Shown one piece after another: positions 2,249 through 33,347 of a stretch of DNA of 33,603 bases (positions within the stretch are counted from its first letter, which is position 1; each line of letters starts with the position of its first letter). A model generated the notes under the pieces. The model ran no database searches. It saw only the letters and a program-made list of their open reading frames with translations, and was not told the DNA's origin. This DNA comes from Lentisphaerota bacterium (GTDB lineage: Bacteria > Verrucomicrobiota > Lentisphaeria > Victivallales > Victivallaceae): positions 1 to 33,603 of the forward strand of contig SUVY01000026.1 of assembly GCA_015061775.1 (NCBI GenBank), given 5' to 3'. The translations under genes were made by a program, and so were the position numbers.

Positions 2249-3961
2249 ATGGGTAACTTTTTCAAAGATAATCCGGATCTGATGTTCACATTGGAGCATC
2301 TTGATCTTGCTCCCGTTGCCGAGCTGGTCGAAAACGGCTACAAACACGCCGAAGAGTTCGACTATGCTCCCGAGAACTTTGCCGACGCTCTCGACAACTA
2401 CCGTCAGGCTCTCAAGGTCGTCGGAGAGATCGCCGCAGACCGTATCGAGCCGCGCTCCCGCACCGTTGATGCAGAGGGACCGAAGTTCGAGAACGGCAAA
2501 GTGACCTACCATCCGCTCACCACCCAGAACCTCAAGGATCTGGCGGACGCAGGTCTCATGGGCGTCATGCTCGAGCACCGTTTCGGAGGTCTCAACTTTC
2601 CGGTTTCAGTCTATACCATGATGACCGAGATCGTCTCCCGCGCCGATGCGAGTCTGCAGAACATCTTCGGACTTCAGGACATCGCCGAGACCATCAGTTT
2701 CTTCGGCAACGAAGAGCAGAAGCAGCAGTACCTTCCCGGATTTGCCACCGGCGAATTCGACGGAGCTATGGATTTGACCGAGCCCGACTACGGCAGCGAT
2801 CTTCCCGGAGTCCGTCTGAGAGCATGGCAGGATGAGAACGGTCAGTGGTATCTCAACGGAATGAAGCGTTTTATCACCAACGGATGCGCTCAGGTGCACC
2901 TGGTGCTCGCCCGTTCCGAGGAGGGAACCACCGATGCCCGCGGATTGTCCATGTTCATCTGCGAAGCCTGTCCCCAGCTGGTCGTGCGCCGCATCGAGAG
3001 CAAAATGGGTATCCACGGAGTTCCGACCTGCGAACTTCAGTACAATGATGTTCCCGCCCAGCTCTGCGGAAAACGCAAATTCGGTCTTATCCGCTACGTT
3101 ATGAGCCTGATGAACGGAGCACGCGTCGCTATCAGTGCGCAGGCTGTCGGTATCGCCGAAGCCGCCTACCGTGCCGCCCGTCAGTATGCTTCAGAGCGTG
3201 AGCAGTTCAAAAAATCCATCGACAAATTCCCGGCGGTTTACTCCATGCTGAGCTCGATGAAGACCCGTCTCACCGCTGCCCGTGCGCTGCTGTACGAGAC
3301 CACCAGAGTCGTCGATCTGCGCAACAGCCTCAGCCGTCTCGTCGATGCCGGAGAGGCTACTCCTGAGCAGCGCGCCGCCCAGAAATACTATGAGCGTCTT
3401 GCCGCGGCACTTACTCCGATGTGCAAAGCCCTCGCCACCGAAGTCAGCAACTCCGTCGCCTACGACAACATCCAGATCCACGGCGGAACCGGTTACATGC
3501 GTGACTTCAACGCCGAGCGTTTCTACCGTGATGCCCGTATCACCAATATCTATGAGGGAACCACTCAGCTCCAGATCGTCGCCGCTATCGGAGGCGTCAT
3601 GCAGCACGTCCTCGACCAGAGGATCGGAGAGCTCGCCGCAGTTCCGGTCAACGCCGAACTTGCCGTCCTCAGAGATAAACTCATGGCTAAGAAGCCCGAG
3701 CTTGACGAGGCTGTGCAGTTTGTTTCCGACCGAAAAGATGCAGAGTACCACGATCTGGTTGCCCGCAGCCTGGTCGAGATGGCGACCAACATCTTCGTCG
3801 GACTTCTGCTTATCCGCGACGCTGCCAGCGATGAGAAGCGTGCTGCGATCGCCGAGCGTTACGTGCTCGATGCCATCCGTGACTTCGACCGCAACAAAGC
3901 GTACGTGGTCTCCGGAGATGACCGTCTGATCAACAACCGTCGTGACATTATCGACTACTGA
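2249..3961 (+). CDS. Acyl-CoA dehydrogenase, long form
   Basis: This is a 570-residue flavoprotein dehydrogenase that introduces a trans-2 double bond into acyl-CoA and passes electrons to ETF, whose two subunits are encoded directly upstream. Family marks include DLTEPDYGSD with the following substrate loop, the RQYASEREQFKKSI segment, the IQIHGGTGYMRDFNAERFYRDARI block and YEGTTQLQ (435-442), where Glu436 is the expected catalytic base. The protein is about 180 residues longer than the common 380-residue type. The extra length is mainly a C-terminal helical region after about 450, as in the ~590-residue subfamily. GAGGAG precedes the ATG. Acyl chain length cannot be predicted. Confidence 0.93.
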   Translation: MGNFFKDNPDLMFTLEHLDLAPVAELVENGYKHAEEFDYAPENFADALDNYRQALKVVGEIAADRIEPRSRTVDAEGPKFENGKVTYHPLTTQNLKDLADAGLMGVMLEHRFGGLNFPVSVYTMMTEIVSRADASLQNIFGLQDIAETISFFGNEEQKQQYLPGFATGEFDGAMDLTEPDYGSDLPGVRLRAWQDENGQWYLNGMKRFITNGCAQVHLVLARSEEGTTDARGLSMFICEACPQLVVRRIESKMGIHGVPTCELQYNDVPAQLCGKRKFGLIRYVMSLMNGARVAISAQAVGIAEAAYRAARQYASEREQFKKSIDKFPAVYSMLSSMKTRLTAARALLYETTRVVDLRNSLSRLVDAGEATPEQRAAQKYYERLAAALTPMCKALATEVSNSVAYDNIQIHGGTGYMRDFNAERFYRDARITNIYEGTTQLQIVAAIGGVMQHVLDQRIGELAAVPVNAELAVLRDKLMAKKPELDEAVQFVSDRKDAEYHDLVARSLVEMATNIFVGLLLIRDAASDEKRAAIAERYVLDAIRDFDRNKAYVVSGDDRLINNRRDIIDY

Positions 3962-3979
3962 TAAAGGAGAGTACACAAC

Positions 3980-4222
3980 ATGAATAACGAGTATTTCGCC
4001 AGAGCGAAGAAAGTTATCGCCGATCCCCAGATCCTGGCTGTTGTCGCTTCAAAGCGCGCCCGCCAGCTTGCTGTGGGAAATGCCCGCCCGATGATCAAAT
4101 GCGACAGTCCCAATCTGTTGGACATCGCACTTCTGGAAATCGCCGAGGGCCTGTTGAGCTATGAGTTCACCGACGAGGCTCCTGCTGCTGCCGCAGAGAA
4201 AGAGCCTGCCGATGCCGAGTAA
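3980..4222 (+). CDS. rpoZ: RNA polymerase omega subunit
   Basis: This small acidic protein of 80 residues matches the omega (RpoZ) core. LAVVASKRARQLAVG followed by P, then ALLEIAEGLLSYEF, aligns with the E. coli pattern LVLVAARRARQ...G...P...IALREIEEGL. Omega wraps the C-terminus of beta-prime and helps assemble core RNA polymerase. The tail (about 66-80) is Ala/Glu-rich, as in other omegas. AAAGGAGA lies before the ATG, 18 bp after the acyl-CoA dehydrogenase stop, and a terminator follows, so it is the last gene of the etf operon. rpoZ is more often beside gmk or spoT, so this setting is unusual. The assignment is from recalled alignment of a short protein. Confidence 0.85.
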   Translation: MNNEYFARAKKVIADPQILAVVASKRARQLAVGNARPMIKCDSPNLLDIALLEIAEGLLSYEFTDEAPAAAAEKEPADAE

Positions 4223-4242
4223 GTTCAGCAGTCTTTAAGCAG

Positions 4243-4276
4243 AAACGCCGTCCCCAGTTTTCCGGACGGCGTTTTT
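4243..4276 (+). terminator. Rho-independent terminator of the etf-rpoZ operon
   Basis: AAACGCCGTCC (4243-4253) pairs perfectly with GGACGGCGTTT (4264-4274) around a 10-nt loop, and the right arm runs into a T tract. It lies 20 bp after rpoZ and about 47 bp before the next start. Confidence 0.92.
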
Positions 4277-4322
4277 GTATCATTATTCAAATTTACCACA
4301 GATCTTACAGGGTAGAGTTATT

Positions 4323-6980
4323 ATGCTGAGAGAAGAGTTTTCTGTTCCTGTGCCTCCGTTTCCTCAGGGAGAGCCTGGTTTTATCGAAGATTTGAAGTCA
4401 TACGATCCGCGCAGGGCGCATTGGAATACCCAAGCGGATATTCCGGAAGAAGTGTATTTACTTTCCGGAAAATGGCAGATCAACAAATCATTTCCCGACC
4501 CTGAAAATCTGCTGGATACCGCGTACAGCGCGATCGAACGTTTTGCTGCTGCAAATGTTCCTGAGTCAGAGCGTCAAATCAAAATAACTTCTCAGAAATG
4601 CGATACTTTGGGGGCAGAGGAGTATTCTGTCAGTGTAACTCCCGAAGGAGTTTTTCTGAGGGCATCAGATACTGAGGGATTGCGGAGAGCTGTCTATTTC
4701 TTTATAGATATGTGCCGCAGTTCAAAGGTACCGGCATTGAAGTTCCAGGAGATCACCCGCAAGCCGTGGCTGAAAAACCGTATTTCCCGCTGCTTTTTCG
4801 GACCGATCAAACGTCCTCCGTTTTACCGTGATGAGCTTACGGATGATATAGACTACTACCCTGAGCCGTACCTCGACCGCCTCGCGTCAGAAGGGGTGAA
4901 CGGAATCTGGCTCACCATCGTCTGGAAAGAGCTCGCTGAAACAGAGTTTTTCCCTGTCGATGAGTTGCGCGCCAAGCGCATTGAAAAACTCAAGCGCACC
5001 GTGGAAAAGTGCCGCCGCTACGGAATAAAGGTCTGGGTGTTCTGCATCGAGCCCGCCTCTTGGAACTTGACAAGCACTCCTCCGTTTGAAGATATGCGCG
5101 GAAAAGGCAATGTAGGAAATGCCTTCTGCATAGCTTCTGAAAATTCTCAAAAATACGTTACCGAGAGCGTTTACAGTATCTTCCGCGACACTCCCAACCT
5201 CGGAGGAATGATGCTCATTTCGCTCGGCGAGCGTCCCACTTCGTGTCTGAGTTTTCTCAACTACATCAATGGAGGCGTTCAGGATTGTAATTGCGAATGT
5301 GGTCTGTCCCACGGCGGAATTCTCAACAAAGTTCTCTCCTGCATCCGCGCCGGAATAAAGAAAGCCGGCAGCGATGCCCAGGTCTTGAGCTGGCTTTACA
5401 ATCCGCTGGCAAATCAGATATCCGAGTGGTGGTTTACGATTCCGGAAGCGATCGGCGGAGACCACATACTTGCGTTCAACTTTGAGTCCGGCTGCAGCAA
5501 GAAACAGGACGGAAAAGTCGTTTCCGGAGGAGACTACTGGCTCTCATCCATCGGTCCATCCGACCGCTTCGGACGCATTGCCGCCGCCGCCAAAGGGCAT
5601 TGCGAGCTTGCCGCAAAAATCCAGGTAGGCTGTTCGCACGAGCTTGCGACCATCCCCTTTATGCCGGTTCCGGGAAACCTCTACGAAAAATACCGCGCGA
5701 TGAAACGCCTCGGGGTCACCAATGTTATCCAGTGCTGGTATTTCGGAAACTACCCCGGCTTGATGAACCGCGCCGCCGGAATGTTGGCTTTCGAGGATTT
5801 CAAGCTGGATCAGCACGATTTTCTCCACCGTCTTGCGCTTCCTGACTGGGGAGCAGCCCATGCGGAAAAAGCCGCCCGTATGTGGCAGGATTTCGGAAAC
5901 GCCTACTCCAATTATCCGATGGATATCCAGTTCCAGTATTATGGACCGATGCACGACGGAGTGGTATGGCCTCTGCACCTCAAACAGGTCATGAAATCGC
6001 TTCCGCGCAGCTGGAAGCCCGATACCGCTCCCGCCGGAGATGCGATAGGCGAGTGCCTTTGCAGTTTCAAACTCACCAATGCTGTGACGTTGTCGCAGAC
6101 GCTTGCCGGAGAGTGGAGCCGTGCGGCAGGGGGCGTTTCTGAGCTGCGGAAAGCGTTTTCCGATGATCCGGCGCGCCAGAGAGACTGTGATCTCTATGAG
6201 GCGTTGGATATCCTGTTCAACTCCGGAGCAAGGATTTTGCAGTTTTATCACTTGAGAAGCCGTCTGTTCGACGCTCCGAAAGGAAGTAAAAAACTGCTGC
6301 TCGAGATGAAGCGCATAGTCGAAGCCGAGAAAGCCGCTTCCGCGCGGATGATCGAGCTGTGCGGGAGCGATTCCAGACTCGGATACCACTCTGAAGCCGA
6401 GGTATTCAAATTCTATCCGGAAAAACTTGCCTGGCGAATATCCCAGCTTGAAACTCTTGCTCCGCTCTTTGATGAGCTTTTGGCAGCAACTCCGCAAGAG
6501 GCCGCCCGTATGCTTGAGTGGAGCGGTACTGAATTCAAACTCAACACCCGGTATCGGGCATCTACTTTTGAGTGGGAGTGCCGTGTCAATGAGCTTGGGT
6601 TTGAGATCGAGTTTGAAAACGCTCCTCTGCCGTCCGGTTCTGCCGAAGACCAGCAGTTCGTGCTGCTCATGGACGAAAAGGGAACCGAATTTCCGCAGGA
6701 GTTCGGAGTCCATGACGAAGGAACTCCTTACGGATACAACGATAAGAGTCTCGGAATAGAAGTCGAGCATATCTCCGGAACCCGGCGCATAGCCCGCGTT
6801 CCGTTGAGCAAGCTCAACTATGCTGAAGCCGTCTTTATCGGAGTTCTCCGCAGATGGCGCGATGCCGGCGGAACGTACTATTATGACACCCTTCCGGCGG
6901 GAGACGGACTTTTCGATCCGCGCCTCAATTTCAACGGACTTTTCTCAGCTGATAAGCTGGGCAAACTGTTTTTGGAGTGA
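4323..6980 (+). CDS. Putative glycoside hydrolase, GH20/GH67/GH163-like architecture
   Basis: This 885-residue protein has no signal peptide. The region around residues 60-150 (EEYSVSVTPEGVFLRASDTEGLRRAVYFFIDM) is the alpha/beta N-terminal domain found before GH20, GH67 and GH163 catalytic barrels. A TIM-barrel-like region follows (about 150-520), with GVNGIWLTIVWKEL and LISLGERPTSC. Where GH20 enzymes carry the catalytic Asp-Glu pair, this one shows Gly-Glu (Glu303). A C-terminal helical and beta region completes it. The ATG at 4323 is chosen over a TTG at 4275 that lies within the upstream terminator; the ribosome site (AGGGTAGAG) is weak. The likely role is intracellular trimming of amino-sugar or uronate oligosaccharides, but family and substrate are uncertain. 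Confidence 0.7.
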   Translation: MLREEFSVPVPPFPQGEPGFIEDLKSYDPRRAHWNTQADIPEEVYLLSGKWQINKSFPDPENLLDTAYSAIERFAAANVPESERQIKITSQKCDTLGAEEYSVSVTPEGVFLRASDTEGLRRAVYFFIDMCRSSKVPALKFQEITRKPWLKNRISRCFFGPIKRPPFYRDELTDDIDYYPEPYLDRLASEGVNGIWLTIVWKELAETEFFPVDELRAKRIEKLKRTVEKCRRYGIKVWVFCIEPASWNLTSTPPFEDMRGKGNVGNAFCIASENSQKYVTESVYSIFRDTPNLGGMMLISLGERPTSCLSFLNYINGGVQDCNCECGLSHGGILNKVLSCIRAGIKKAGSDAQVLSWLYNPLANQISEWWFTIPEAIGGDHILAFNFESGCSKKQDGKVVSGGDYWLSSIGPSDRFGRIAAAAKGHCELAAKIQVGCSHELATIPFMPVPGNLYEKYRAMKRLGVTNVIQCWYFGNYPGLMNRAAGMLAFEDFKLDQHDFLHRLALPDWGAAHAEKAARMWQDFGNAYSNYPMDIQFQYYGPMHDGVVWPLHLKQVMKSLPRSWKPDTAPAGDAIGECLCSFKLTNAVTLSQTLAGEWSRAAGGVSELRKAFSDDPARQRDCDLYEALDILFNSGARILQFYHLRSRLFDAPKGSKKLLLEMKRIVEAEKAASARMIELCGSDSRLGYHSEAEVFKFYPEKLAWRISQLETLAPLFDELLAATPQEAARMLEWSGTEFKLNTRYRASTFEWECRVNELGFEIEFENAPLPSGSAEDQQFVLLMDEKGTEFPQEFGVHDEGTPYGYNDKSLGIEVEHISGTRRIARVPLSKLNYAEAVFIGVLRRWRDAGGTYYYDTLPAGDGLFDPRLNFNGLFSADKLGKLFLE

Positions 6981-12499: not shown

Positions 12500-15400
12500 T
12501 CAGGAGCGTTTTTTAAAGACGTTATTGAGTTTGAGAGCAGCCTTGACGGCAAAAGTTTTCCGCTCCTCTTCGAGCTGCTGATTTGCCTTGTTTGCTGAAT
12601 CGAGAGCCGCCTGAGTCTTTGCCAGCTCCTGCTTCAAAGATTCGAGCTGCTGATTGACTTGCGACAGCTGTGTTTCGCGCTCGGCTATGTTGTTTTCATA
12701 CTGTTTTGCGCGTTCCTCAAAAAGTCTTGCGTCTGCGGACAGTTTTTCCTCAGCCATCTCAGCGCGCTTTACATTGTACTCATAGGCTTCGCGGAAATAC
12801 TTTGCCTCTTTCTCGTTATATTCACAAGCTTCGCGGAAAGTTTTTGCCTCTTTCTCATTATATTCGCATGCCTTGCGGTAATTTTCGATATCGACGTCGC
12901 GCTCGTCCAGAAGTTTCTGATAATGGGCGGTTTCCGAAGCAAGTTTCTGAGCGAGAGACTTTGCCTCTTTTTCATTATATTCGCTTGCCTTGCGGAAATT
13001 TTCGATATCTTTGTCGCGCTCCTCGAGAAGTTTCTGATAATGGGCGGTTTCCGAAGCAAGTTTCATCGCGAGCGTTTTTGCGTCCTGCTCGTTGTACTGG
13101 TTTGCCTTGCGGTAGTTTTCGATATCTTTGTCTCTCTCCGCAAGGAGTTTCTGATAATACGCCGTCTCAAATACCAGCTTGTCGGACAGCTCTCTTGAGC
13201 CGTTGAAGAGGGCGATAAATATATCCTCTCCGTCGCGCATTATGGATTTGAGCGCAATAGAAATATCTTCGGCTTCGGGTGTAGTGTCATCCAGAGGAAG
13301 ATTTTTTTCAGTTGCTTCAAAAACGGTTTTCCAATCTTTTTCAAACGGATGGTCAACGAAGCAGGCGAGGGTCTTTTTGCCTTCGCGTCCGAGCTTGTCG
13401 GCGAGTTCCGGGTTTTTCAGCAGGCGGACAGTTTCCTGCGCGAGTGACTTCCAGTCGCCCTGAGCAACTTGAATGTGTCCTGCTGTCCGGCGGAAGAGTT
13501 CGATATTTGGCAGTTCATAAGAGAGCACCGCAAGCGCATTTGCTTTTGCTTCAAATACCGTAAGCGGAAAACACTCTGCTTTCGATGTGGATATATACAA
13601 CGCCGCGCTCTGATAGTAATTTGCGATATCCTTCACAAATCCGGCAAGTACGACGTTATCTTTCAGATTTTTTTCATCTATGGTTTTCAATAACGCAGTA
13701 TAAACGGGGTCATCAGAAGTTTCCGGACATCCGGCGATGATGAGACGCGCGTCAGGAATTTCTTTGACGACTTCTTCGAGAGCAAATACGGCGTCAAGCG
13801 GAGCTTTTTCCGGGCTTATTCTGCCCACCCACAATATATCACAGTTTTGAGTTTTTTCCCGGGGCGCAGCTTCAGTCTCCGCCGTCAGGATGTTTGGAAT
13901 ATACTTCGCATTGCATCCGAGGGTCTTCCACCAAGCATGATCCACTCTTGAGAGCGTGACGAGCCCGTCGGCAAATTTCCAAGTGCGCAGAGCGGTGAAT
14001 TTTGTGAGAGAAAACATATCCATCGCGCAGTATTCGTGCGTTTGCATGATGAAATGCGCTCCGGCGAGTTTAGCCGCGCACAGATCCCAGATCGCGTGCT
14101 GTTCGAGGGAGTCATTGTATAAAACGATATCTATGTTTTCTTCGGAAATAAACTCTTTCCACTCTCTTACTCTCGACGCTATGCAGTCGGCTTCGGCAGT
14201 CCGCAGTCTTCCGGAGGAAAACACTTTGACTTTAGTCTGCTCCGGGATATTATAGCAATTTTCTCCCGGCTCCTCATCGGTCAGGAGAATTGTTTTGTAC
14301 CCCATATCGTTGAGTTTTTCAAGCAGATTGGATATGGTTCTTTCCACTCCGCCCGTGTGCATCCTGAAATAGAACACCGCGACGGTCGATATCTTCTTAC
14401 TGCTGCGCGGAAGCGCGTCCGGAGCAAGCTGAGCGATGAACTCAAGCTCTCTGGAAAAATATTTTTCAGCGAGCTTTATCAACTCTTCTTCGCTGTTTAT
14501 CGTCAGCGCCGGAGCAGGTGTCTCTTGCACGGGAGCAAAAGGCTCTTTGACGGGAAGCGTTTCCTGTTGAACAGCGATTTTGTTTTCGCTTATCAATTCA
14601 AGTCTGCGGCATTTTTCTTCGAGATTGGTGATCGCGTCCGCCTGCATCTGACACCACTTGACGAGCTCCTGCTCGTGGAGCAGTAGCCCCGGAATATCGT
14701 GAGCTTTGACATCCAGAACCTTGTTTTCATGCGCAACAGCTTCCGAAGCGGCTTTGGGTGGAATTGATTTTCTGAACTCTTCGAGCGAAGAAAAACCCTT
14801 CTTATTAAGATAAAAGTTGAGGTGATACTCCCTTATTTCCTGCTCAGACGGGAATGACAAACGCCATTTGTAATACTCATAGTTGAACATGAGCTCATAC
14901 GGAATGATGTAGTTGAGATAGAGAAAATTGAGCTCGTTTATATGTCCGTCTTCCGCGATTTTTCCAGCGAGCAGATCATCTGAAAGTATGGAAAAGGGAC
15001 TGTCTCCCATGACCATCACCGGCTTATCAAACAGCGAGGCTTCGAGCGCCATGCTGGAATTTATGGTGACAAGCTGCTTTATGCGTTTGAAAAAGTGCAC
15101 CGTGGACGGAGAACGGTCAAGGCGCGACGTAAAATAACTCTTGGCTGCGGGGTGGCTGCGGAAAAGGACGTTCTCTTCTCCGAAGTGGAAGTTCACAAAC
15201 TGCTGCAGCTCCTGATTGTTGAAGCCTTTTGAGTAGGCGATGATATTGCTGTCATCATCCACCTGACCGGCAATTCCGGTCTCATAGTCGATGTTTTCTT
15301 CTATGGAGTCGGTTCTTTGGAACTCCTCTTCGCTCATAAAGAGGGCGAGCAGCTCACGTTTGGAGAGCAAATTGCCAGACAGTTCGTCTTTGGATTTTTC

Positions 15401-15970
15401 AAAACGCCTTGCGGCTTCGGTATTTCCGTTGACGCCGGACAAATCCCAGTAGGCGGTCTGCAGATACTGCGGCTTGCGGGTGGGACCTATTTCGGTGTGG
15501 ATGACCGGTATTCCGAGCTCTCTGCCGACATGATCTGCGGAGGGCAGATTGCAGCTGAGCAGCATAGCTTCGACCGGCTCTTTTTTACTGATTTCGGCAA
15601 TGGTTTCCCTCAAAAACTGCATGAGGGGCTCATGGGGCTCAGTCATGAGGTATTTCCAGACAAGATTGTTGGATTTGAATTTTTCTTCAAGATCCGCAAA
15701 GAGTTTCTGGTCGATATTTATGATGTTTTGAGCCGCAACGGTGTTGTTGTCCGGAATGGAATATTCGAGTTTTTCGAGGGTTGCGGGGGCTTTTTCCCAG
15801 CAGTCTTCGGGCAGAGAATCCGGATAGATGAGATTTTTCTCCCAGCCGGTGAACGTGAAGTGTTCGAGGTCTCCGCGGAAATCGCTGAGCTGTTTGTAGA
15901 AAAACCAGAGCTGAGCTCCGAAAAGTTTGTGATATCTTGCGTTGCAGGGCAGTAAAATCGATAAAATCAT
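12500..15970 (-). CDS. Two-domain glycosyltransferase with C-terminal tandem-repeat coiled coil
   Basis: This is an 1156-residue fusion. Residues 1-405 resemble a GT-B capsule-type (KpsC/KpsS-like) domain: paired Rossmann-like halves and NSSMALEASLFDKPVMV (304-320). Residues 430-520 are a linker. Residues 527-880 are a GT4 domain with GGVERTISNLL, ILWVGRISPEKAP (712-724) and the EX7E nucleotide-sugar motif Glu799/Glu807. Residues 925-1140 are a coiled coil built from 39-residue repeats (SETAHYQKLLEERDKDIENF) and then 14-residue repeats ending YNEKEAK. It starts 9 bp after the Wzt stop (GAGGAAACTT ribosome site) and ends a Wzm-Wzt-GT operon, so it probably builds the exported glycan at the inner membrane. 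The coil may scaffold the assembly or measure chain length. Confidence 0.85.
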   Translation of the reverse strand: MILSILLPCNARYHKLFGAQLWFFYKQLSDFRGDLEHFTFTGWEKNLIYPDSLPEDCWEKAPATLEKLEYSIPDNNTVAAQNIINIDQKLFADLEEKFKSNNLVWKYLMTEPHEPLMQFLRETIAEISKKEPVEAMLLSCNLPSADHVGRELGIPVIHTEIGPTRKPQYLQTAYWDLSGVNGNTEAARRFEKSKDELSGNLLSKRELLALFMSEEEFQRTDSIEENIDYETGIAGQVDDDSNIIAYSKGFNNQELQQFVNFHFGEENVLFRSHPAAKSYFTSRLDRSPSTVHFFKRIKQLVTINSSMALEASLFDKPVMVMGDSPFSILSDDLLAGKIAEDGHINELNFLYLNYIIPYELMFNYEYYKWRLSFPSEQEIREYHLNFYLNKKGFSSLEEFRKSIPPKAASEAVAHENKVLDVKAHDIPGLLLHEQELVKWCQMQADAITNLEEKCRRLELISENKIAVQQETLPVKEPFAPVQETPAPALTINSEEELIKLAEKYFSRELEFIAQLAPDALPRSSKKISTVAVFYFRMHTGGVERTISNLLEKLNDMGYKTILLTDEEPGENCYNIPEQTKVKVFSSGRLRTAEADCIASRVREWKEFISEENIDIVLYNDSLEQHAIWDLCAAKLAGAHFIMQTHEYCAMDMFSLTKFTALRTWKFADGLVTLSRVDHAWWKTLGCNAKYIPNILTAETEAAPREKTQNCDILWVGRISPEKAPLDAVFALEEVVKEIPDARLIIAGCPETSDDPVYTALLKTIDEKNLKDNVVLAGFVKDIANYYQSAALYISTSKAECFPLTVFEAKANALAVLSYELPNIELFRRTAGHIQVAQGDWKSLAQETVRLLKNPELADKLGREGKKTLACFVDHPFEKDWKTVFEATEKNLPLDDTTPEAEDISIALKSIMRDGEDIFIALFNGSRELSDKLVFETAYYQKLLAERDKDIENYRKANQYNEQDAKTLAMKLASETAHYQKLLEERDKDIENFRKASEYNEKEAKSLAQKLASETAHYQKLLDERDVDIENYRKACEYNEKEAKTFREACEYNEKEAKYFREAYEYNVKRAEMAEEKLSADARLFEERAKQYENNIAERETQLSQVNQQLESLKQELAKTQAALDSANKANQQLEEERKTFAVKAALKLNNVFKKRS
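12758..13171 (-). repeat. In-gene tandem repeats encoding coiled coil
   Basis: Three 117-bp units (13171-12842, the last shortened) encode 39-residue repeats. Two 42-bp units (12841-12758) encode 14-residue repeats sharing YNEKEAK or a variant. Unit identity is high at the DNA level, so slipped-strand changes in copy number could alter coil length in frame, because 117 and 42 are both multiples of 3. Confidence 0.85.
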
Positions 15971-32950: not shown

Positions 32951-32978
32951 AAAAAATCCAGCCATAAAGGACTGGATT
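32951..32978 (-). terminator. Minus-strand terminator downstream of the hairpin array
   Basis: AATCCAG (32955-32961) pairs with CTGGATT (32972-32978), with an inner CC/GG pair. Read on the minus strand, the stem is followed by a T tract (32956-32951). It would end transcripts coming from the tRNA-Pro side. Bases 32979-33046 hold nothing recognisable. Confidence 0.7.
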
Positions 32979-33046
32979 GCAGGTCATAATATAGTGCGGA
33001 TAGCGTTGTATTGCAAACGGATAAACTCTCATTTTCCATTTTCTCA

Positions 33047-33237
33047 TCATCCGTCGCACGAAGTGCTATGGATGACAGGTCATACGGAGCGTAAGCGAAG
33101 TGCTTCATAGCGGAATGAAATGGAGCTGCTTCATCTGAAAAGGCGAATATATGAAGCGCACCTGCGGTGCATGAAGCACGGCTGCGCCGTATGAAGCGGC
33201 ACTGCGTGCCATGAAGCGAAGCCTTTTCAGGCTTCAT
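33047..33237. repeat. Structured element with ATGAAGC/13-bp hairpin array
   Basis: ATGAAGC occurs at 33151, 33171, 33191 and 33211, exactly 20 bp apart. The gaps are 13-bp hairpins: GCACC-TGC-GGTGC, ACGGC-TGC-GCCGT and GGCAC-TGC-GTGCC. CTGAAAAGGC (33135-33144) pairs perfectly with GCCTTTTCAG (33221-33230), closing the array into a multibranch fold. GCTTCAT, the complement of ATGAAGC, flanks it at 33128 and 33231. A further hairpin, TCATCC-gtc-GCAC-GAA-GTGC-tat-GGATGA, lies at 33047-33075. The hairpins differ in sequence but keep 5-bp stems and the TGC loop, which suggests that structure is conserved. No credible ORF. Confidence 0.8.
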
Positions 33238-33238
33238 G

Positions 33239-33268
33239 TTTTTTTGCCTTGGAATCAAGGCAAAAAAA
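33239..33268 (-). terminator. Terminator of tRNA-Pro
   Basis: Seven T plus GCCTTG (33239-33251) mirrors CAAGGC plus seven A (33256-33268) around a GAAT loop. On the minus strand it starts directly after the encoded CCA and ends in a T tract. By symmetry it could also act on the plus strand. Confidence 0.85.
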
Positions 33269-33347
33269 TGGTCGGGATAGAGAGATTCGAACTCTCGACC
33301 TTTTGACCCCCAGTCAAACGCGCTAGACCAGGCTGCGCTATATCCCG
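33269..33347 (-). tRNA. tRNA-Pro (anticodon GGG)
   Basis: This is a 79-nt cloverleaf on the minus strand. Acceptor CGGGATA/TATCCCG, discriminator A and encoded CCA (33272-33269); D stem GCGC/GCGC with AGCCTGGT in the loop; anticodon stem TTTGA/TCAAA with loop CTGGGGG, anticodon GGG; T arm GAGAG-TTCGAAT-CTCTC. It reads proline codons CCC and CCU. Confidence 0.95.

Follow-up and report, generated by a model that had tools for sequence, protein, structure and literature searches.

Integrative elements that carry tyrosine recombinases insert at the 3' ends of transfer RNA (tRNA) genes and keep the tRNA intact, and repetitive extragenic palindromic (REP) sequences are dispersed hairpin repeats linked to one gene, that of the RAYT transposase. 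The intervening sequences (IVSs) of 23S ribosomal RNA (rRNA) genes are the nearest known system to the locus described here; the IVS of Coxiella burnetii, with its S23/IVP reading frame, was called a selfish element by its authors (PMC4990558). Further points of comparison are Avd of the diversity-generating retroelements (PMC10053308) and Gut-1, described as a noncoding RNA from human gut metagenomes only (PMC2864571). The present analysis concerns a hairpin array next to a tRNA-Pro(GGG) gene in a stretch of 33,603 nucleotides from a Lentisphaerota bacterium (assembly GCA_015061775.1, contig SUVY01000026.1, positions 1 to 33,603; the window in what follows). The array probably forms one end of a small mobile element, here called the tRNA-tail element, which measures about 0.7 kb in its complete form and whose insertion sites lie immediately after the CCA end of tRNA and transfer-messenger RNA (tmRNA) genes.

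The tRNA-tail element shares with the IVSs the Pfam family of its protein, a structural-RNA gene as target and repeats placed just before the reading frame (PMC4990558). The IVSs, however, lie inside rRNA helices and are cut out of the transcript, whereas the tRNA-tail element stands behind tRNA or tmRNA genes and outside 23S rRNA genes; heptamer repeats (PMC4990558) are replaced by hairpin arrays; and the reading frame, which is decaying in Coxiella (PMC4990558), is under purifying selection in the complete copies and absent from the window copy. Avd has a similar four-helix-bundle fold, but the tRNA-tail element possesses neither reverse transcriptase nor template/variable repeat, and no reverse transcriptase was found in 14 of 17 element-bearing genomes, many of them incomplete. 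As with REP sequences, dispersed hairpin repeats are linked to one gene, but this gene belongs to PF05635, no Y1 transposase adjoins the arrays, the target is a tRNA end and each array holds many hairpins. Insertion at the tRNA 3' end with the tRNA left intact recalls the tyrosine-recombinase elements, from which the tRNA-tail element differs in its size (below 1 kb), its many tRNA isotypes and the absence of an integrase and, in the stretches examined, of a second copy of the tRNA 3' part at its distal end. For REP/RAYT systems, diversity-generating retroelements and integrase-borne tRNA elements alike, a defining feature was tested and found to be missing from the tRNA-tail element. Full-text searches of an open-access library, which excludes subscription journals and preprints, returned no description of tRNA-adjacent four-helix-bundle elements, and the tRNA-tail element is apparently undescribed.

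Results

The array sequence has matches at 11 places in its own genome, and 29 of 60 related genomes contain the array. All eight array sites gathered by search in the own genome lie directly 3' of a tRNA gene (Pro-GGG, Pro-TGG, Val, Leu, His, Gln, Phe and Ser), and a second array type, with the linker GTGAAG, stands behind tRNA-Arg(CCT), tRNA-Gln(TTG) and tRNA-Ser(TGA). Complete copies consist of the array, a promoter and one gene, about 119 codons long, whose product is a four-helix-bundle protein (PF05635, TIGR02436); array and gene adjoin in at least 11 loci of related genomes, and a gene-bearing copy (L172/L280) occupies the same tRNA as the window copy. A scan of 84,980 species returned at least 579 relatives, the best 80 of which come from Lentisphaeria and Clostridia, nearly all from gut or rumen assemblies, with 63–92% identity to the query. 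Upstream sequence sufficed for 63 loci. A same-strand tRNA lies no more than 500 bp upstream in 51 of them (median distance 278 bp, 15 amino-acid types), against 0.8% expected from the tRNA density over the rest of the same contigs (binomial probability about 1e-95); none has one on the opposite strand. The 12 exceptions include several with tRNA 3' fragments (L170, L218, L222 and L246) or with tandem arrays and a tRNA further off (L193). Relatives of the repeats in other gut bacteria, and their horizontal spread, had been anticipated by the original prediction; both hold, the same element layout recurring in two phyla, Lentisphaerota and Bacillota. Phage and plasmid collections gave no match to the array.

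Because orthologous tRNA-Pro and tRNA-His sites of sister species are empty in some and filled in others, the arrays are insertions between the tRNA CCA end and the native terminator. The tRNA-Pro(GGG) site is without an array in G021, G023 and G024 and carries one in the window and in G001, G011, G016, G029 and G031, while that of G033 holds a GTGAAG-type array together with the remnant of an ATGAAGC-type array. A hairpin terminator directly follows tRNA-Pro in G021 and recurs beyond the array in the window and in G011; the terminator at 32951, originally assigned to the array itself, is real but is the native one of tRNA-Pro, displaced by the insertion. The tRNA-His site, empty in seven species, is filled in L121 in the order tRNA, T-run, palindrome, array, promoter, protein gene, T-run and native terminator. 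The site behind a clostridial tRNA-Trp is likewise polymorphic, with arrays of several linker classes, so that presence and absence at orthologous sites, the general mark of a mobile element, is found at three tRNAs and agrees with the earlier suggestion that the tRNA 3' end serves as an integration site. The palindrome next to the tRNA occurs in most filled sites and not in empty ones. An inverted copy of the tRNA end (at least three bases) is present in the tRNA-side hairpin of 24 of 111 array-bearing against 7 of 104 array-less tRNA ends, and could stem either from the reaction of insertion or from selection favouring a terminator.

A cassette with cargo genes was considered and dropped, the L121 element ending right after the four-helix-bundle gene; since the native terminator directly follows that gene, the genes downstream of the element are read as native. 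Integration with tRNA duplication was likewise rejected, as every tRNA 3' duplication found belongs to a different, smaller kind of insertion. These measure about 100–230 bp, were seen at eight loci (L047, L055, L058, L077, L142, L253, L255 and L269) behind tRNA-Pro, Leu, Thr, Tyr and His, sometimes between the tRNA and the hairpin array, and have at their flank 20–48 nt of the tRNA 3' end, repeated exactly or almost exactly. In G380 and G389, exact repeats of the last 46 nt of tRNA-Trp occupy numerous positions of one genome, a pattern that would suit dispersal by an element with a tRNA 3' half. Downstream of the elements in L121, L122, L264 and L274 lies a noncoding sequence some 300 nt long that is conserved among them (..GGCTAATTGAAAACTG..ACCGACCAAGTAAAAACG..), and its start is also present in L146, L147 and L154; it has no Rfam match and is possibly an undescribed RNA.

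In the window copy, the array lies 31 bp from tRNA-Pro(GGG). Inspection of the sequence places its ATGAAGC linkers (n = 4) at 33151, 33171, 33191 and 33211, exactly 20 bp apart, with three 13-bp hairpins of perfect 5-bp stems and a common TGC loop between them and a 10-bp helix around the whole, in the place and form first reported. The other half of the array had been overlooked: it comprises the linker in reverse complement, GCTTCAT, at 33102 and 33128 on the left and also at 33231, two outer hairpins and a separate one at the left edge. The features of the locus are as follows.

32951-32978, minus strand: native terminator of tRNA-Pro, displaced, the right-hand flank of the insertion (comparison with sister species)
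32988-33017, minus strand: promoter-like TTGCAA-17-TATATT, at the place where complete copies have the promoter of the protein gene missing here
33047-33075, plus strand: extra separate hairpin at the left array edge, common to some copies only
33084-33101, plus strand: outer-half hairpin AC-GGA-GC-GTAA-GC-GAA-GT with a GNRA-type loop (sequence)
33102-33237, no strand assigned: hairpin array with linker ATGAAGC/GCTTCAT in two opposite halves (sequence; the 11 same-genome matches)
33109-33127, plus strand: outer-half hairpin AGC-GGAATGAAATGGA-GCT with a G/A-rich inner part (sequence; other copies vary, with the outer pairs kept)
33135-33144, plus strand: left arm of the enclosing 10-bp helix, CTGAAAAGGC (sequence)
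33158-33170, plus strand: hairpin 1, GCACC-TGC-GGTGC (sequence and stem-pairing analysis)
33178-33190, plus strand: hairpin 2, ACGGC-TGC-GCCGT (sequence and stem-pairing analysis)
33198-33210, plus strand: hairpin 3, GGCAC-TGC-GTGCC (sequence and stem-pairing analysis)
33218-33245, plus strand: terminator-like hairpin with T7 at the right array end (sequence scan)
33221-33230, plus strand: right arm of the enclosing 10-bp helix, GCCTTTTCAG (sequence)
33239-33268, no strand assigned: palindrome T7GCCTTG-GAAT-CAAGGCA7 between the tRNA CCA and the array, the tRNA-side element end (sequence)
33269-33347, minus strand: tRNA-Pro(GGG), the target gene (ARAGORN; Rfam tRNA, 65.3 bits)

Folding of the array stretch beats all 200 shuffles (z = -3.5 for the plus-strand RNA, -4.4 for the minus-strand RNA and -4.5 for the plus-strand DNA), and with its recurrence in the own and related genomes the array is not a product of chance. 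Having kept the array and the promoter and lost the four-helix-bundle gene, the window copy is likely to be a worn relic of the element. Elsewhere in the window, a tandem repeat of 117-bp period (12843-13158) lies inside a large minus-strand open reading frame (12500-15970).

The 56 distinct hairpins found between ATGAAGC linkers use 24 different left arms, and their outer five stem positions pair in a mean of 4.54 of 5, compared with 1.78 of 5 when the arms are re-paired at random. Homologues thus exist and keep their pairing, and the combination of different stems with preserved pairing, first noticed in three hairpins, holds throughout. Of the proposal that the array is a structured RNA or a recombination substrate, the conserved structure stands; a free-standing RNA gene does not, since the array appears to be one end of an insertion element.

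The linkers also vary together with the protein. Their classes ATGAAG, GTGAAG, ATGATG and GTGATG follow the protein tree with 5 changes, against a shuffled mean of 33. Across the 72 rows compared, residues S1 and R4 near the N-terminus accompany a G-initial linker in 38 of 38 rows (with K for R in one) and are absent from all A-linker rows, the G linker occurring with an N-terminal SKLR and the A linker with other N-termini. On a tree made without the N-terminus, the four independent contrasts with good support are concordant in almost every pairing (p = 0.125, as low as four can give). Direct reading of the linker by the protein is suggested, not proved, by this correspondence. More distant four-helix-bundle proteins occur with the linkers AATTTAGCT, ATGAATTG and GTTATATT, and arrays with the linker ATATCAT/ATGATAT behind clostridial tRNA-Trp (L346 and L350) form a further class.

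Membership of the protein in PF05635/TIGR02436 is clear, with all eight alignment members above the curated cut-off (for example, 88.9 bits against 33.8), and a ratio of nonsynonymous to synonymous substitutions (dN/dS) of mostly 0.03–0.12 shows the gene to be under strong purifying selection. Its structure model (predicted local distance difference test score of 90.7) agrees with the structures of two S23 proteins, 2RLD and 2GSC, both of which were solved with five chains; it is more weakly similar to Avd (TM-score 0.72–0.76, 15–18% identity; 4DWL and 8UB7, for Avd and Avd–reverse transcriptase complexes). As modelled, the protein is related to the S23/IVP proteins of the 23S rRNA IVSs and to Avd. 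No array of this sort accompanies the distant PF05635 proteins of the SIPSNIAEG type (L088-L102), so that the array is regarded as a trait of some subfamilies; several PF05635 genes at these loci are preceded by short tandem repeats, such as GCAATAG or GGTTATA, in the way described for the IVS reading frame of Coxiella (PMC4990558). In L294 and L295, a four-helix-bundle element with the linker ATGAATTG adjoins a gene end that is repeated next to it in inverted orientation; by its last residues, the gene is a candidate for that of the 23S rRNA methyltransferase RlmD.

The consensus of Gut-1 (RF01706) follows the same plan of linkers and hairpins, although its linker is RUGAAAU in place of AUGAAGC and it is filed as a noncoding RNA of unknown host. 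The window array scores 29.8 bits against it (E = 0.0011), below the gathering cut-off of 50 bits, and is therefore not a member; a match to the RT-5 RNA (17 bits) was not significant and was discarded. Among 295 genomes from the order to which one clostridial host belongs, 102 have Gut-1 above the cut-off; about 20 of 30 loci inspected lie beside a tRNA or tmRNA gene (tmRNA in L318 and L319), and L325 has a four-helix-bundle gene in place. From these clostridial matches behind tRNA and tmRNA genes, we interpret Gut-1 as the form that the array takes in one branch of the tRNA-tail element family.

Discussion

Dispersed copies, a tRNA target, empty and filled sites, a layout common to two phyla, variable but paired stems, a structure preserved in the single strand and selection on the protein are demonstrated features of the tRNA-tail element. 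Its complete form comprises a palindrome or terminator, the linker/hairpin array, a promoter and one four-helix-bundle gene of the S23/IVP/Avd family. By analogy with the solved relatives, a protein ring, probably of five, may grip the repeated linkers once the array has folded, either as RNA or as single-stranded DNA, and bring the array to a tRNA end, where host enzymes would complete the insertion; the terminator of the element would keep the tRNA functional. Several points weigh against this scheme. No movement of the element was observed; the PF05635 family has no known catalytic activity; the evidence for linker recognition consists of four well-supported independent contrasts only (p = 0.125); a few copies stand behind non-tRNA genes (L124, L206, L294 and L295); and the genomes are mostly drafts assembled from metagenomes.

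The arrays might instead be genes for regulatory noncoding RNAs, with the four-helix-bundle protein as binding partner and tRNA-linked island transfer as the means of spread. The variable but paired stems, the listing of Gut-1 by Rfam as a small RNA and the terminator-like site at the end of the plus strand would suit such genes, but a single tRNA site that is empty in some genomes and filled in others, multiple copies per genome at unrelated tRNAs, and tandem or mixed-type arrays at one site are the patterns expected of insertion, no promoter for a plus-strand RNA is known in the window array, and we consider this explanation unlikely. It is somewhat less improbable, though still doubtful, that the element is a retroelement in which the Avd-like protein passes the folded RNA of the array on to a reverse transcriptase acting in trans, the complementary DNA then being joined at the tRNA end. 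The resemblance to Avd and to Avd–reverse transcriptase complexes, the structured-RNA genes that serve as targets and the excess of inverted tRNA-end copies at array-bearing ends speak for it, whereas a reverse transcriptase (PF00078) is found in only three of the 17 element-bearing genomes, an absence that is not firm where genomes are incomplete.

Transposition of the hairpin repeats as single-stranded DNA by a Y1 transposase, in the manner of REP/RAYT or IS200 and with the four-helix-bundle protein as accessory, is very unlikely: the hairpins do have very stable DNA loops (GAA, GCA and GNRA) and Y1 genes are present in some element-bearing genomes, but matches resembling full-length Y1 (PF01797) occur in few of the 17, the others being partial or lacking, and the neighbour of the array is the four-helix-bundle gene. 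Being patchy in these genomes, as far as drafts allow this to be judged, neither the reverse transcriptase nor the Y1 transposase is likely to be a constant partner. We give still less credence to arrays as the ends of integrative elements placed by tyrosine recombinases. tRNA 3' ends are their usual sites, and in L048 a candidate tyrosine-recombinase reading frame (3944-5032) ends beside a tRNA-Val 3' fragment that is followed by an array; yet a single family occupies many tRNA isotypes, the complete element has no integrase, and in the stretches examined, the 33 kb of the window among them, the distal end of the element is without a tRNA 3' fragment.

An element that inserts behind the CCA ends of tRNA and tmRNA genes with a single protein of its own could, as a tentative proposal that we hold to be nearly as probable as its contrary, represent a new class of mobile element, whose sole protein is an Avd-like four-helix ring reading the linkers of a folded array and which itself encodes none of the known transposases, recombinases or reverse transcriptases. 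If this is true, the orphan S23/IVP proteins, with solved structures and no known function, and the Gut-1 RNA, recorded only from gut metagenomes, would be two halves of one system, and both orphans would find their place. The apparent linker code makes the contact between protein and array directly testable. The finding would point to a movement of DNA without a recognized transposase, aimed at the ends of tRNA genes, in gut Lentisphaerota and Bacillota.
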